From assembly GCF_006540305.1 (NCBI RefSeq), contig NZ_BJOR01000001.1, forward strand, positions 5,208,001-5,272,000: DNA of 64,000 bases, written 5' to 3'. The DNA comes from Streptomyces sp. 6-11-2. GTDB lineage: Bacteria; Actinomycetota; Actinomycetes; Streptomycetales; Streptomycetaceae. Shown piece after piece: positions 31,476-58,577 of the stretch. The translations under genes were made by a program, and so were the position numbers. How positions within the stretch are numbered: position 1 is the stretch's first letter; every line of letters begins with the position of its first letter. A model generated the notes under the pieces. It made no database searches and had not been told where the DNA came from. It was given only the letters and a program-made list of their open reading frames with translations.

Positions 31476-31497
31476 ACCGTACGCGACCGCACTGACA
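31476..31497 (-). promoter_or_regulatory. RecA-NDp-like (PafBC-type) promoter of the esterase operon
   Basis: On the minus strand TGTCAGTG (31497-31490), 8 bases, TACGGT (31481-31476). The established actinobacterial damage promoter is TTGTCAGTGGC-N6-TAGGGT, that is TGTCAGTG-N8-TANNNT; this fits with the exact spacing. Transcription would begin near 31469. Confidence 0.65.
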
Positions 31498-31571
31498 CCG
31501 ACCAGGGCCGTCGGTCCCACGGGTCGTACCCGGCGGTATCGTCTGATCGACACACACAGGAAGGCACTCGG

Positions 31572-52830: not shown

Positions 52831-54327
52831 TCACTGGGAGCCGCGGAACTCCGGTCCCTCCACGATCAGTCCGGCCACCAGCGCCCCCGACATCCCGGCG
52901 TGCGGCAGCCCGCCCCCGGGGTGCGACCAGCCGCCCACGGTGAACAGGCCGGTGAGTCCCGTGGTGTTCGCCGGGTGCAGCAGGCGCCCCCCGGCGGCCG
53001 CGAACGCCGGCGCGGGGACGGCCCCACCCTCCGCGCCCGTCACCCGGGCGATGTCGGCCGGGGTGCGCACCTCGTGCCAGAGCAGGCGGTCGCGGAGCCC
53101 GGGTATCGCCCGCGAGGCGACGGCGATCATGCGGTCGGCCTGCTTCCGCGGATCCGCCGAGGCGGACGCCGGGACCGTCGCCGTGAGCGTGACCGCCTCG
53201 TGCTCCGGGTCCGGGACCAGCGCGGGATCGCCCGGGCGCGACACCGCGACCGTGGGCCGCTCGGGCAGCTCCGGGGCCGTACCGAACAGCGCGTCGAGTT
53301 CGGCCGCGCGGTCCTCGGTGTGCACCACGGTCCGGTGGGCCGTCCCCTCGGGACGGCCGCCGCGCAGTGCCAGCAGCACGGTCAGGCGGCTGGGCGCACC
53401 GGGCTGCGGCGGCACCTCGCCCGCACCGCGCAGGGCCGTACCCCGGACCATGCCGTCCAGCGTCCGGGGAGGCACACCGGCGACCACGAACTCCGCTTCG
53501 GCCACGGTCCCGTCGGCGAGCTCCACGCCCGCCGCCCGGCCGTCCTTGTCGACGATCCCCGTGACCTCGGTGCCGAGGACGAACTCGACCCGGCGGGCCA
53601 GGCACCGCTCGTACACCGCGCGCGCCAGTTCACGCAGGCCGCCGCGCACGTACCAGGTGCCGAAGGCGTGGTCCAGGTACGGCAGTACGGCCGTGCTCGC
53701 CGGGGCGGTCCGCGGATCGAGGCCGTAGGCGAGCGCGTGGCTCTCCAGGAGGGCGGCGAGGCGCGGGTCGCGCAGTTCCCAGGCGCCCACCTCGGCGAGC
53801 GTGCCGGCCTGCCGGGTGCGCAGCAGGCGCTTGTGCGGCACCGCCGGGTAGGGCTCGCGCTCGGCCAGCACCTGCCAGTTGGGCCACAGCGGCTCCTCCA
53901 GGAGCGGGCGGCGGGCGCGGTCCCAGGCCTCGCGGGCCCGCACCAGGAAGTCGCCCCAGCGCCGTCCGGCGCCCGCGCCGAGGGCTTCGTCCAGAGCGGC
54001 GACGACGCCCGCGCGCGAGACGTTCGGCAGGGACACCTCGGCGCCGTCGGCGAAGACGTGCCGTGCGGACGGGTCCACCTGGACCAGCTCGACGCGGTCC
54101 TCCAGCGGCTCCTTGCCGGTCTTGAGGAACAGATCGCGGTAGACCGCGGGCAGCGGGAGCAGGCCGGGGCCGGTGTCGAAGGCGAAACCGTCCCGCTCGA
54201 AACGGCGCAGCGCGCCGCCGTACGTCTCCGTACGCTCGTACACCGTCACCCGGTGGCCCGCGACGGCCAGCCGGGCGGCGGCCGCCATCGCGCCCATCCC
54301 GGCGCCGATCACCGCAATCCGTGCCAT
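52831..54327 (-). CDS. Phytoene-desaturase-like NAD(P)/FAD oxidoreductase
   Basis: 498 residues of the CrtI/CrtO-like flavin oxidoreductase family. N-terminal FAD motif RIAVIGAGMGAMAAAARLAVAGHRVTVYERTETYGG, FDTGPGLLPLP, an internal Rossmann strand VEFVLGTEVTGI, and C-terminal GLFTVGGWSHPGGGLPHAGMSGALVAGLI. There are no carotenoid genes around it, so it may act on another prenyl or lipid substrate. ATG 54327 lies 7 nt after TAAAGT (minus 54340-54335): leaderless. It is 12 bases from its convergent neighbour. Confidence 0.9.
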   Translation of the reverse strand: MARIAVIGAGMGAMAAAARLAVAGHRVTVYERTETYGGALRRFERDGFAFDTGPGLLPLPAVYRDLFLKTGKEPLEDRVELVQVDPSARHVFADGAEVSLPNVSRAGVVAALDEALGAGAGRRWGDFLVRAREAWDRARRPLLEEPLWPNWQVLAEREPYPAVPHKRLLRTRQAGTLAEVGAWELRDPRLAALLESHALAYGLDPRTAPASTAVLPYLDHAFGTWYVRGGLRELARAVYERCLARRVEFVLGTEVTGIVDKDGRAAGVELADGTVAEAEFVVAGVPPRTLDGMVRGTALRGAGEVPPQPGAPSRLTVLLALRGGRPEGTAHRTVVHTEDRAAELDALFGTAPELPERPTVAVSRPGDPALVPDPEHEAVTLTATVPASASADPRKQADRMIAVASRAIPGLRDRLLWHEVRTPADIARVTGAEGGAVPAPAFAAAGGRLLHPANTTGLTGLFTVGGWSHPGGGLPHAGMSGALVAGLIVEGPEFRGSQ

Positions 54328-54416
54328 GTGCGCGACTTTATCGGCCGCCACCGACAATCCCGGCCACGGGGGCGTTGACCAGCAGTTTCCCCGGATGTGC
54401 GGGGCCGCGGGCGCGG

Positions 54417-55407: not shown

Positions 55408-56037
55408 TCAGAGGCGCTCGCCGACCCGTCCCTGAAGGAGTCGGGACAGCGCCGCGTGCACGTCGTCCAGGGAACGCTGGGGCTGGAAGGACTTCCAGTC
55501 CAGCGCGGCCACCAGCACCATGCCGACCAGCGCGGCCGCGGTCAGCGGCACGTCGACGTCCTCGCCGAACTCCCCGTTCGCCATGCCGTCGCGCAGTACG
55601 CCCTCGACGACCGCGACCGCCTCCTGCCGCACCACCAGGAGCGTGGACTGCCAGGACCGGTTGGTGCGCCACAGTTCGGCCACGTAGAGCTGGGTGAAGG
55701 CCGGGTAGCGGTCGATGAAGACGAGCCCGGCGCGGACCATGGCGTCCAGGGCGTCCACCCGGCTGCCGCCCTCCCGCGCCGTCTCTTCGGCCGCCTCGCG
55801 CAGGGAGGCGGTGAGCAGTCCCACGCCGTGCCGCAGCAACTCCTCGAAGAGGACGGACTTGCTGGCGAAGTTGTAGTAGACCGTGCCCTTGGCGACCCCC
55901 GCCCGCTCGGCGATCTCGTCCACCGTGGTGGCGGAGAACCCCTGCTCGGCGATGAGGGTGACGGCCGCCTCGTAGAGCTTCTGCCGGGTGGCCTCGCGGC
56001 GGGTACGGCCGCCCGGCGTGGCGCTGCTGCGTTCCAT
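55408..56037 (-). CDS. TetR-family transcriptional regulator
   Basis: 209 residues. Typical N-terminal HTH: RREATRQKLYEAAVTLIAEQGFSATTVDEIAERAGVAKGTVYYNFASKSVLFEELL; the rest is an all-helical ligand domain with aromatic residues (FIDRYPAFTQLYVAELWRTNRSW). ATG 56037 is the first in-frame codon matching the family start (MERSSATPGGRTRREAT). It diverges from the HEPN gene across 212 bases, so it could control that gene, itself or both. Ligand unknown. Confidence 0.93.
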   Translation of the reverse strand: MERSSATPGGRTRREATRQKLYEAAVTLIAEQGFSATTVDEIAERAGVAKGTVYYNFASKSVLFEELLRHGVGLLTASLREAAEETAREGGSRVDALDAMVRAGLVFIDRYPAFTQLYVAELWRTNRSWQSTLLVVRQEAVAVVEGVLRDGMANGEFGEDVDVPLTAAALVGMVLVAALDWKSFQPQRSLDDVHAALSRLLQGRVGERL

Positions 56038-56178
56038 GGCCCTGATTGTCACAGGTCGGCACCTCCCGCAGGACGCGGAAGGGGAGGCCGGCGGCGCGGT
56101 CACGGGGGCGCGCCCCGAGAGCCGCCGACCCCGGGCCGCCGAACGTACGGTCGAAGCAGAATCCCAGGTCAGAACGGA

Positions 56179-56201
56179 TTGTCAGTGCCATACCTCACGA
56201 T
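56179..56201 (+). promoter_or_regulatory. RecA-NDp-like (PafBC-type) DNA-damage promoter of the HEPN gene
   Basis: TTGTCAGTGCC (56179-56189), six bases, CACGAT (56196-56201). It matches the established RecA-NDp pattern TTGTCAGTGGC-N6-TAGGGT at 10 of 11 upstream positions with exact spacing; the -10 agrees at its key A2 and T6. Predicted start near 56208 leaves a 42-base leader with AGGAGG before the ATG at 56250. Confidence 0.7.
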
Positions 56202-56249
56202 GGGCACATACGGCACCCGTGCCGTCACCCAGACGACAGGAGGTTCGTC

Positions 56250-56864
56250 ATGGCCAACTCGTCCGCAGCCGCCGCTCGTCGGCACCGCGCCACCGGCCCT
56301 GCCCCCTCACTGACCGGCCCGGCGAGCGACGTGCACCCCGTCCCGCGCCGCTCCCCGGCCCCTCCCGCCGCCCTCGGCCTGCTCGCCCAGGCCCGCGCGA
56401 GCCTGGAGGAGGCCACCACCCACCGCACGCCGAACGAGCGGTACGCGACGGCCCACCTCGCCGCGCTGCGCACCGCCGCCGCCGTACTCGCCGCGCGGGG
56501 ACGTCCGGATCCCACCCCGCGCCGCCGGGCCCGCATCAGGAGTGCCTGGGAAGTGCTCCCCGAGATCGCGCCCGAACTCGCCGAGTGGAGCGCGCTGTTC
56601 GCCGCGGGCGCCGCGCGCCGCGCCCGTGCGGAGGCCGGGATCCGGGGCGCGGCCGGCCGGCGGGACGCCGACGACCTGATACGGGACGTGGCGATGTTCA
56701 TCCGCCTGGTCGAACGCATGCTCCTCCTCCAGCCGGTCCTGCCCCAGCCCCGCCCCGACACCGACACCGACATCGACCCCGCGACCGGGGCGGGCGAACC
56801 GACCGGAGCGAACCCCTCCCACCCCGAGCGCACCCCGTGCCGCGACCTGCCGGACGCGGGCTGA
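56250..56864 (+). CDS. SAV_6107-type HEPN-domain protein
   Basis: 204 residues. The core (about 42-165) is the SAV_6107 HEPN family: LGLLAQARASLEEATTHRTPNERYATAHLAALRTAAAVLAARGRP, then SAWEVLPEIAPELAEWSALFAAGA and the closing DADDLIRDVAMFIRLVERML. RYATAH (Arg64-His69) has the RX4H spacing of catalytic HEPN ribonucleases, though its place in an early helix needs structural confirmation. N- and C-terminal tails are Pro-rich and disordered. ATG 56250 has AGGAGG seven bases upstream. Promoter type and divergence from a TetR gene suggest stress-controlled expression. Confidence 0.85.
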   Translation: MANSSAAAARRHRATGPAPSLTGPASDVHPVPRRSPAPPAALGLLAQARASLEEATTHRTPNERYATAHLAALRTAAAVLAARGRPDPTPRRRARIRSAWEVLPEIAPELAEWSALFAAGAARRARAEAGIRGAAGRRDADDLIRDVAMFIRLVERMLLLQPVLPQPRPDTDTDIDPATGAGEPTGANPSHPERTPCRDLPDAG

Positions 56865-57080: not shown

Positions 57081-57905
57081 GTGTCGGACCCGATGCGCCC
57101 GCCCGTCTCCCACCACCCTCAACCGACGTCGCCGCGCCCCGATCCCTCTCGCCCCCGCGCTTCTCTCCGTACCGCCGTGGTCTGGGAGGTCCTGCACGAC
57201 GCCCTCGACCGCCGGGTCAAGGCCGCGGGCCGGGAGTCCCTGGACGTCCTCGACACCGGCGGCGGCAGCGGCAACTTCGCCGTGCCCGCCGCCCGGCTCG
57301 GCCACCGGGTCACCGTCGTCGACCCCAGCCCCAACGCGCTGTTCGCGCTGGAGCGCCGTGCCGCCGAGGCCGGCGTGGCCGACCGGGTGCGGGGCGTCCA
57401 GGGCGACGCCCGCGGCCTCTTCGACGTGGTCGAGCGCGGCGGCTACGACGCCGTGCTGTGCCACGGCGTCCTGGAGTACGTCGACGACCCCGCCGAGGGC
57501 GTGCGCAACGCGGTGGCCGCCCTGCGCGCCGAGGGCGTCCTGAGCGTGCTCGCCGCCGGTCTCGGCGGCGCCGTGCTCGCGCGCGCTCTGGCCGGGCACT
57601 TCAAGGAGGCCCGGCAGGCGCTCGACGACCCGGACGGGCGCTGGGGCGAGGGCGACCCGGTGCCGCGCCGCTTCACCGCCGAGCAGCTCACCGCACTCGT
57701 CGAGGGCGCGGGCCTGCGGGTCGGCGCCGTGCACGGGGTGCGGATCTTCGCCGACCTGGTGCCCGGGGTGCTCGTGGACACCGAGCCCGGAGCGCTGGAC
57801 GCCCTGCTGCAACTGGAGGCGGCGGCGGCCGAACGGCCCGCGTTCCACTCCGTGGCCACGCAGCTCCACGTACTCGGTGAGACCCGGGGTGCGGCGGAGG
57901 ACTGA
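57081..57905 (+). CDS. SAM-dependent methyltransferase
   Basis: 274 residues, class I methyltransferase fold: motif I VLDTGGGSGNFAVPAARLG, motif II Asp in VTVVDPSPNAL, motif IV GYDAVLCHGVLEYVDDPAEGV, and post-motif ALRAEGVLSVLAAG. The arrangement resembles the SmtA/CmoA-like group acting on RNA or small molecules; substrate not known. A disordered N-terminus of about 30 residues precedes the fold. GTG 57081 with GAGGAG nine bases upstream. It follows the HEPN gene by 216 bases on the same strand. Confidence 0.9.
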   Translation: MSDPMRPPVSHHPQPTSPRPDPSRPRASLRTAVVWEVLHDALDRRVKAAGRESLDVLDTGGGSGNFAVPAARLGHRVTVVDPSPNALFALERRAAEAGVADRVRGVQGDARGLFDVVERGGYDAVLCHGVLEYVDDPAEGVRNAVAALRAEGVLSVLAAGLGGAVLARALAGHFKEARQALDDPDGRWGEGDPVPRRFTAEQLTALVEGAGLRVGAVHGVRIFADLVPGVLVDTEPGALDALLQLEAAAAERPAFHSVATQLHVLGETRGAAED

Positions 57906-58181: not shown

Positions 58182-58577
58182 GTGCCGCTCTCGGAGCACG
58201 AGCAGCGCATGCTCGAGCAGATGGAGCGAGCGCTGTACGCCGAAGATCCCAAGTTCGCGTCGGCGCTCGAGGGAAGCGGGCTGCGTACGTACACCCGGCG
58301 GCGGGTCTACCAGGCGGTCGTGGGCTTCCTCGTAGGTATCGCGCTCCTCATGGCAGGAATGGTCGTCCAGCAGCTCATCTGGGTCAGTGTGGTGGGCTTC
58401 CTGGTCATGCTGGGCTGCGCCGTACTGGTCGTGACCGGCTGGCGCAAGGCGCCCAAGCCGGGCGAGCAGGCCGCCGGCGGCCCGCAGGCCCGCCGTCAGG
58501 CCCGTGCGAAGCGCTCCATGATGGACCGCATCGAGGAGCGCTGGCAGCGCCGCCGCGACGAGCAGGGCGGCCGCTAG
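58182..58577 (+). CDS. DUF3040 membrane protein
   Basis: 131 residues. The N-terminal PLSEHEQRMLEQMERALYAEDPKFASAL is the DUF3040 hallmark, followed by two helices (about 43-63 and 66-86) and a basic Arg-rich C-terminus (RRQARAKRSMMDRIEERWQRRRDEQ). GTG 58182 with GAGGA eight bases upstream. In actinobacteria this gene sits near mraZ and the division cluster (mycobacterial Rv2169c); role unknown. Confidence 0.9.
   Translation: MPLSEHEQRMLEQMERALYAEDPKFASALEGSGLRTYTRRRVYQAVVGFLVGIALLMAGMVVQQLIWVSVVGFLVMLGCAVLVVTGWRKAPKPGEQAAGGPQARRQARAKRSMMDRIEERWQRRRDEQGGR

Follow-up and report, generated by a model that had tools for sequence, protein, structure and literature searches.

A damage-type promoter ahead of the SAV_6107 HEPN gene of Streptomyces and the likely place of this gene in the actinobacterial DNA-damage response

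The stretch of DNA studied here, 64,000 nucleotides (nt) from Streptomyces sp. 6-11-2 and called the window in the following (C1:5208001-5272000 of a genome of 8.73 Mb in 3 contigs), holds a gene for a HEPN protein of the SAV_6107 type, and ahead of this gene stands a site resembling the RecA-NDp promoters, which belong to the PafBC branch of the DNA-damage response in actinobacteria. Comparison of the site and the gene with their orthologues makes it very likely that the HEPN gene has long belonged to the DNA-damage regulon of actinobacteria and is controlled by DNA damage. The promoter and its gene comprise the following features.

56179..56187, + strand: RecA-NDp upstream element TTGTCAGTG, read from the window and backed by genome counts and orthologue conservation, its role being assigned by analogy with passages of PMC11804915
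56196..56202, + strand: variant -10 hexamer CACGAT plus G (C class, CAnnATG), backed by orthologue conservation and by the genome count of its class (20 versus 0)
56208, + strand: predicted transcription start, placed by analogy with sister sites, where the -10 and a leaderless-type start codon are 6-7 nt apart
56238..56243, + strand: likely ribosome binding site AGGAGG, read from the sequence
56250..56864, + strand: gene of the SAV_6107-type HEPN protein (204 amino acids, HEPN domain at residues 55-155), from a Pfam match, an AlphaFold2 model and fold matches

From 56179 to 56201 the window reads TTGTCAGTGCCATACCTCACGAT, that is TTGTCAGTG-N8-CACGAT, and the hexamer (56196-56201) ends 48 nt 5' of the HEPN start codon ATG at 56250. 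The element at 56179-56187 probably takes the place of the -26 motif that is read by PafB in mycobacteria. The earlier note on this DNA had called the site a RecA-NDp promoter, and this identity is only partly upheld: TTGTCRGTG stands at the correct spacing from the -10, but the -10 itself is CACGAT and differs from TAnnnT at its first base. The HEPN promoter is hence a variant and not a textbook member of the type, yet to judge from its sequence it is expected to work like a RecA-NDp promoter. The number of motif matches in the window was rejected as a proof of this promoter, being not beyond chance (12 matches with at most 3 mismatches versus a mean of 6.8, a number reached in 6 of 100 shuffles); the promoter is judged real because the site is conserved ahead of orthologues, which is the decisive evidence.

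The HEPN gene is single copy in this genome, and the closest named proteins are from Streptomyces. It occurs in 112 of 121 genomes of the genus, in 39 of 41 of a family sample and in 163 of 246 of a class sample, while a phylum sample gave matches in 20 of 197 genomes, 15 of these over the cut-off. Using the 30 best-scoring loci of the 112 matching genus genomes and 28 more from the family sample, an NDp site was found ahead of HEPN in 51 of 59 Streptomycetaceae loci, and in 31 of the 32 named ones. A scan upstream of orthologues, which the earlier note had proposed as a check, thus finds the motif conserved in Streptomycetaceae and not confined to the window.

This genome has the same promoter type 5' of recA, uvrA, uvrB, ruvC, dinB, holB and further repair genes, and in it the pattern TTGTCRGTG-N8-TAnnnT with at most 1 mismatch gives 109 sites versus 4 for the reversed pattern. 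Open reading frames (ORFs) were called downstream of the 30 perfect sites and 17 ORFs were profile-scanned, which were chosen partly for a repair-like look and so are not an unbiased sample. The repair products among them are RecA, UvrB, UvrA, RuvC, a uracil-DNA glycosylase and RarA/MgsA, together with the exonuclease VII large subunit (xseA), two UvrD-type helicases, DnaX, an AlkZ-like glycosylase, an O6-methylguanine methyltransferase and a DEAD helicase; a DUF2797 protein, a HAD hydrolase and a flavin oxidoreductase fall outside the repair list, and one ORF has no profile match. In spite of the partly picked sample, the motif still marks a gene set rich in DNA repair. The damage-type promoter which had been claimed ahead of the SAV_6107 HEPN gene is therefore borne out by the site itself, by its presence ahead of orthologues and by this genome-wide repair set.

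Regarding the regulator, two adjacent WYL genes (C1:5782961-5784155), among eight WYL matches in the genome, are likely PafBC, their tandem arrangement suggesting the identity as pafB and pafC. According to passages of PMC11804915, PafB reads the -26 motif together with SigA RNA polymerase, and PafBC is activated by single-stranded DNA in mycobacteria. RecA-NDp promoters are already known in Streptomyces, an example given in passages of PMC5087735 being the UV-inducible SCO6735.

Some further sites were observed beside this set. Perfect TTGTCRGTG-N8-TAnnnT sites of this genome (L003, L005-L027) mark out a repair regulon of the PafBC type, in which many genes have leaderless-type starts, and perfect sites also occur 5' of a transposase-like ORF (L029, judged by eye only) and of two ORFs on contig C2 (L030, L031). 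In the window, a perfect site at 54335-54357 (- strand) lies 7 nt before the leaderless-type ATG of a flavin amine-oxidase/phytoene-desaturase-like gene (about 52831-54327, - strand); with at most 1 mismatch it is kept in 10 of the 15 Streptomyces loci read, and the Streptacidiphilus locus has none. A one-mismatch RecA-NDp-like site, GTGTCAGTGCGGTCGCGTACGGT, is located at 31476-31498 (- strand).

The -10 elements fall into two classes, the C class (CAnnAT) and the T class (TAnnnT). The pattern TTGTCAGTG-N8-CAnnATG with at most 1 mismatch gives 20 sites in this genome versus 0 for its reverse, and the exact C pattern gives 146 matches versus 0 in 21 genomes of the genus, though the word GCGAGTGCCACCATG recurs in many of the 146 and may be coding. 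Profile scans covered 7 of the 20 genes behind C sites, namely those for the HEPN protein, an ATP-dependent helicase (which we take to be of the Lhr type), HolB, DinB, an AlkZ-like protein, a DUF5937 regulator and an iron-dependent (DtxR-type) repressor. Leaderless-type starts are found 4-11 nt past the -10 for 18 of 30 sites of the T class and 9 of 20 of the C class, versus 5-6% of random positions. Among the sites listed from a genome search with TTGTCRGTG, A occupies the fifth -10 position in 16 of 23 CA sites and in none of 30 TA sites (Fisher p 1.7e-8).

Moreover, the form of the -10 is kept by gene across species, as CAnnAT for HEPN and dinB and as TAnnnT for recA. Over 30 genomes, the recA -10 has the T form in 29 (L210 gave no site) and the C form in none, and the dinB -10 has the C form in 29, a G in the remaining one and the T form in none; in the 51 Streptomycetaceae HEPN loci with a site, the first base is C in 47 and G in 4, and the fifth is A in all 51. 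The C-class dinB of this genome lies away from the HEPN gene and its best DinB model differs (PRK03348 versus PRK03858), so that it is not simply a displaced operon gene. Two positions that differ in a coupled way, as the fifth-base test indicates, and the absence of a T form at dinB and of a C form at recA in the 30 genomes would also be expected if the C-class sites were the target of another activator resembling PafBC and not PafBC promoters. However, the two classes agree in TTGTCAGTG, in spacing, in how far leaderless-type starts lie from the site and in having repair genes downstream, and we consider such a separate activator improbable.

Outside Streptomycetaceae, the HEPN gene stands behind an SOS box (TCGAAC-N4-GTTCGA, 1 mismatch allowed, no further than 1.1 kb ahead of HEPN). 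From the 163 class-sample genomes with a match, 40 loci (L110-L149) in 30 families outside Streptomycetaceae were chosen by hand; the box is present 5' of HEPN in 38 of them (the misses being L110 and L134), and also in 48 of 48 named non-Streptomycetaceae loci, as compared with 1 of 151 equal-length downstream segments. In the named Streptomycetaceae it appears in 2 of 32 loci, both with one mismatch. In 15 of the 38 loci the box follows a strict element TGTCnG-N10-TAnnnT, whose TGTC starts 30-32 nt ahead of the box in 14 of these 15 (shuffle mean 0.016), and no such element was seen in the remaining 23; a sigma70-type TTGAC-N17-20-TAnnnT is found at the box in 19 of the 38. It thus seems that in several lineages a LexA operator lies across the start site of a PafBC-like promoter. 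For recA, passages of PMC8223512 describe control by PafBC and LexA together. With the SOS box ahead of HEPN outside Streptomycetaceae, beside the NDp conservation within, the link of HEPN to the damage response is strong and wider than first proposed.

A block of DUF6504, HEPN, DnaE and DinB with an SOS box was also observed on a contig filed as a metagenome-assembled genome of Bifidobacterium breve (L314), which is possibly mis-binned.

Two features of the window lie on the 5' side of the NDp site.

55408..56037, - strand: divergent gene of a TetR-family regulator, from a profile scan, a conserved neighbour
56139..56154, no strand assigned: LexA-like word CCGAACGTACGGTCGA, fitting the S. venezuelae LexA consensus CGAAC-N4-GNNCGa as given in passages of PMC9380542

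The word CCGAACGTACGGTCGA is the only match to this consensus in the window; it is weak, with 2 departures from the palindrome, and lies 40 nt ahead of the NDp site. A LexA-like word at this distance (three times 51 nt, once 39 nt) is found in 34 of 82 NDp loci versus 21 of 6479 control segments, and CCGAACGTACGGTCGA may either serve LexA or belong to the promoter or operator of tetR. The divergent TetR gene, which had been put forward as a second control, is present and kept in 28 of the 32 named Streptomycetaceae loci, while its control of HEPN stands as a candidate only.

Downstream of the HEPN gene, two neighbours complete the conserved block.

57081..57905, + strand: S-adenosylmethionine-dependent methyltransferase, a conserved neighbour, from profile scan and neighbour comparison
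58182..58577, + strand: DUF3040 protein, end of the conserved block, from profile scan and neighbour comparison

In 20 extended loci the composite order, with gaps, is SOS box, DUF6504, HEPN, DnaE-type polymerase, methyltransferase, DinB and DUF3040, with DnaE present in 9, DinB in 10, either polymerase in 14 and DUF6504 in 6. Neighbours in the named loci were counted within a reach of 5 kb, and some of these loci are shortened by contig ends; on this basis, 31 of the 48 named non-Streptomycetaceae loci have either polymerase, the commonest order being DUF6504-HEPN-DnaE-methyltransferase (14). A literature search on DUF6504 found no paper. In Streptomycetaceae the block is HEPN-methyltransferase-DUF3040 in 30 of 32 named loci, like in the window, and HEPN is alone in the other 2. 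That just these three genes stay together there would agree with damage control being retained by descent only, with the function of HEPN tied to the methyltransferase and DUF3040 in another process; however, the damage-type promoter was not lost but retained, as SOS box or as NDp site, and other lineages keep polymerase genes among these very genes, which makes this explanation quite unlikely.

As for the protein, the ORF at 56250-56864 matches PF18726 (HEPN_SAV_6107) over residues 55-155 with 124.3 bits against a cut-off of 27.2 (E 3e-36), and its predicted model has the helical-bundle fold of HEPN domains. The earlier note had found RYATAH (R64-H69) in it and suggested an RNA-cleaving or RNA-binding step. 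The motif is there, R64-Y-A-T-A-H69 being the sole R-x4-6-H of the protein, but an RNase in this form finds no support: helix 2 of the AlphaFold2 model has 23 residues, with R64 as its fourth and H69 as its ninth, whereas in HEPN RNases, according to passages of PMC3710099, the catalytic R-x4-6-H sits where helix 3 ends, and the table of this survey (Anantharaman 2013, entry HEPN-M (SAV_6107)) lists the family without catalytic motif and with '-' as operon entry. If the structural alignments are sequential, model residue 64 pairs at most with chain residue 46 of 5yep_C (114 of 132 chain residues aligned, model 38-161, chain from residue 2) and 54 of 7ae2_A, while the toxin mutants named in the entry titles of structural matches are R102 and H107, presumably the motif residues. 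R64/H69 as canonical HEPN active site was thus rejected, as sequential alignments cannot reach the motif Arg of the solved toxins. A profile search of PDB sequences gave no HEPN match, its two matches being at E 0.3 and 0.95.

The residues concerned are nevertheless well kept in an alignment of 48 sequences (A1), which holds 39 of the 40 loci from other families (L119 was left out, having no start codon by the rule used) and 9 more that either come from Streptomycetaceae or are close relatives of the window protein. Position 64 is Arg in 46 and Lys in 2, position 69 is His in 43 and Tyr or Gln in the other 5, and position 124 is Arg in 47, together with H69 in 43. A damage-induced RNase with a rewired HEPN site, made of H69 in helix 2 and R124 at the end of helix 3, would make use of this conservation. 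Its model would be AF0298 (2hsb), the best structural match of the HEPN model, for which passages of PMC3710099 describe an alternative site where the motif His is missing and an upstream His may replace it. However, H69 gives way to Tyr or Gln in the 5 sequences noted, an R-x4-6-H between residues 105 and 160 occurs in only 2 of the 48, and the same survey, in the table entry quoted, has SAV_6107 without a motif, so that we hold a rewired RNase to be unlikely. Still far less probable is a HEPN toxin of a toxin-antitoxin pair that is triggered by DNA damage, a reading rejected because no nucleotidyltransferase (MNT) is found among the neighbours scanned (3 in the window and 10 from other loci); the gene, moreover, is single copy, occurs in 112 of 121 genus genomes and is often beside repair polymerases.

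Several points weigh against a damage-regulon gene with a role in translesion synthesis. The HEPN -10 is not the textbook TAnnnT, and 8 of the 59 Streptomycetaceae loci have no NDp site by the criterion used, of which 5 have an SOS box (at most 1 mismatch, within 700 nt) and 3 have neither. As 35 of the 48 named non-Streptomycetaceae loci are Nocardioidaceae, these loci are not independent. In Streptomyces the polymerases lie outside the HEPN block, and since HEPN is retained without them, a strict polymerase-partner role is not required. Where DnaE is beside HEPN (L154, L162, L163, L164), the replicative and the error-prone NCBIfam models score about equally and below both cut-offs, and the neighbour passes the cut-off only for the broad TIGR00594, so that it is named only a C-family alpha subunit. 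Furthermore, passages of PMC9380542 report that an initial search found the M. smegmatis PafBC motif seemingly not conserved in S. venezuelae, with which our motif counts (109 versus 4) disagree, and that LexA binds in S. venezuelae at recA, ruvC, dnaE2/dinP and uvrA; LexA can hence also act on Streptomyces repair genes carrying NDp sites, and the two pathways may share targets. As an observation aside, the DnaE adjacent to HEPN may be a separate DnaE subgroup.

Taking these points together with the promoter evidence, we propose the following course for a HEPN gene under damage control. As read from the sequences, the Streptomyces gene has a RecA-NDp-type promoter with a conserved CAnnAT -10, the form it has in common with dinB, and PafBC activated by single-stranded DNA would recruit the housekeeping RNA polymerase to both promoters. 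Outside Streptomycetaceae the gene stands behind an SOS box, overlaid on a PafBC-like promoter in 15 of 38 loci, and often heads a block of DUF6504, a DnaE-type polymerase, the methyltransferase and DinB. The HEPN fold may then bind nucleic acid or a polymerase partner via its conserved Arg, His and Asp, and would be no free RNase toxin. Its gene company and the missing catalytic motif point to assistance in lesion bypass, and a role as an accessory of translesion synthesis is plausible at slightly less than even odds. Rather than a classical enzyme that cuts RNA, the protein is probably a component of the DNA-damage response that has been overlooked. To the whole explanation, that is, a damage-regulon gene whose product is a HEPN-fold translesion accessory without the canonical motif, we give a probability of about 0.6. 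More tentatively, the SAV_6107 HEPN protein might be a translesion subunit or regulator under ancestral control by LexA and PafBC, of which Streptomyces would have kept the PafBC promoter after loss of the strong SOS box, and the sub-class with C at -12 and A at -8 (HEPN, dinB) might be induced more tightly or later than the T class (recA).

No literature linking the SAV_6107 HEPN to DNA damage was found, by titles among the matches listed and in passages of PMC3710099; SAV6107 and HEPN are named together only in this 2013 survey, and a search for TTGTCAGTG as text gave, among the matches listed, unrelated papers only. A family lacking known function would thus move into the class-wide bacterial DNA-damage response, tied to mutagenic polymerases. 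At the level of sequence, the counts also speak for a PafBC-type regulon throughout a Streptomyces genome, which passages of PMC9380542 had left open, and they define two stable sub-classes of promoter that can be probed by changing one base.

In comparison with known systems, the promoters described here share TTGTCRGTG, the 8-nt spacer, the repair genes and a pafBC-like WYL pair with the RecA-NDp/PafBC promoters of the mycobacterial regulon and of S. coelicolor SCO6735, and differ in the CAnnATG -10, which is kept as CAnnAT ahead of HEPN and dinB. The LexA/SOS regulon of actinobacteria is matched by TCGAAC-N4-GTTCGA ahead of HEPN orthologues from other families, where an NDp-like element overlaps it in some cases, whereas the window has only the weak and ambiguous LexA-like site at 56139-56154. 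The protein belongs to the same family as HEPN_SAV_6107 (PF18726), the HEPN-M of Anantharaman 2013, to which the damage context is added here. With the HEPN RNases (HepT, Csm6, RNase L) it shares the fold, but it has no R-x4-6-H at the end of helix 3. The ImuA'-ImuB-DnaE2 mutasome is a damage-controlled cluster with Y- and C-family polymerases, and in both respects the HEPN block of other lineages resembles it; the block differs in having HEPN, DUF6504 and a methyltransferase, and its DnaE is assigned as a C-family alpha subunit only.
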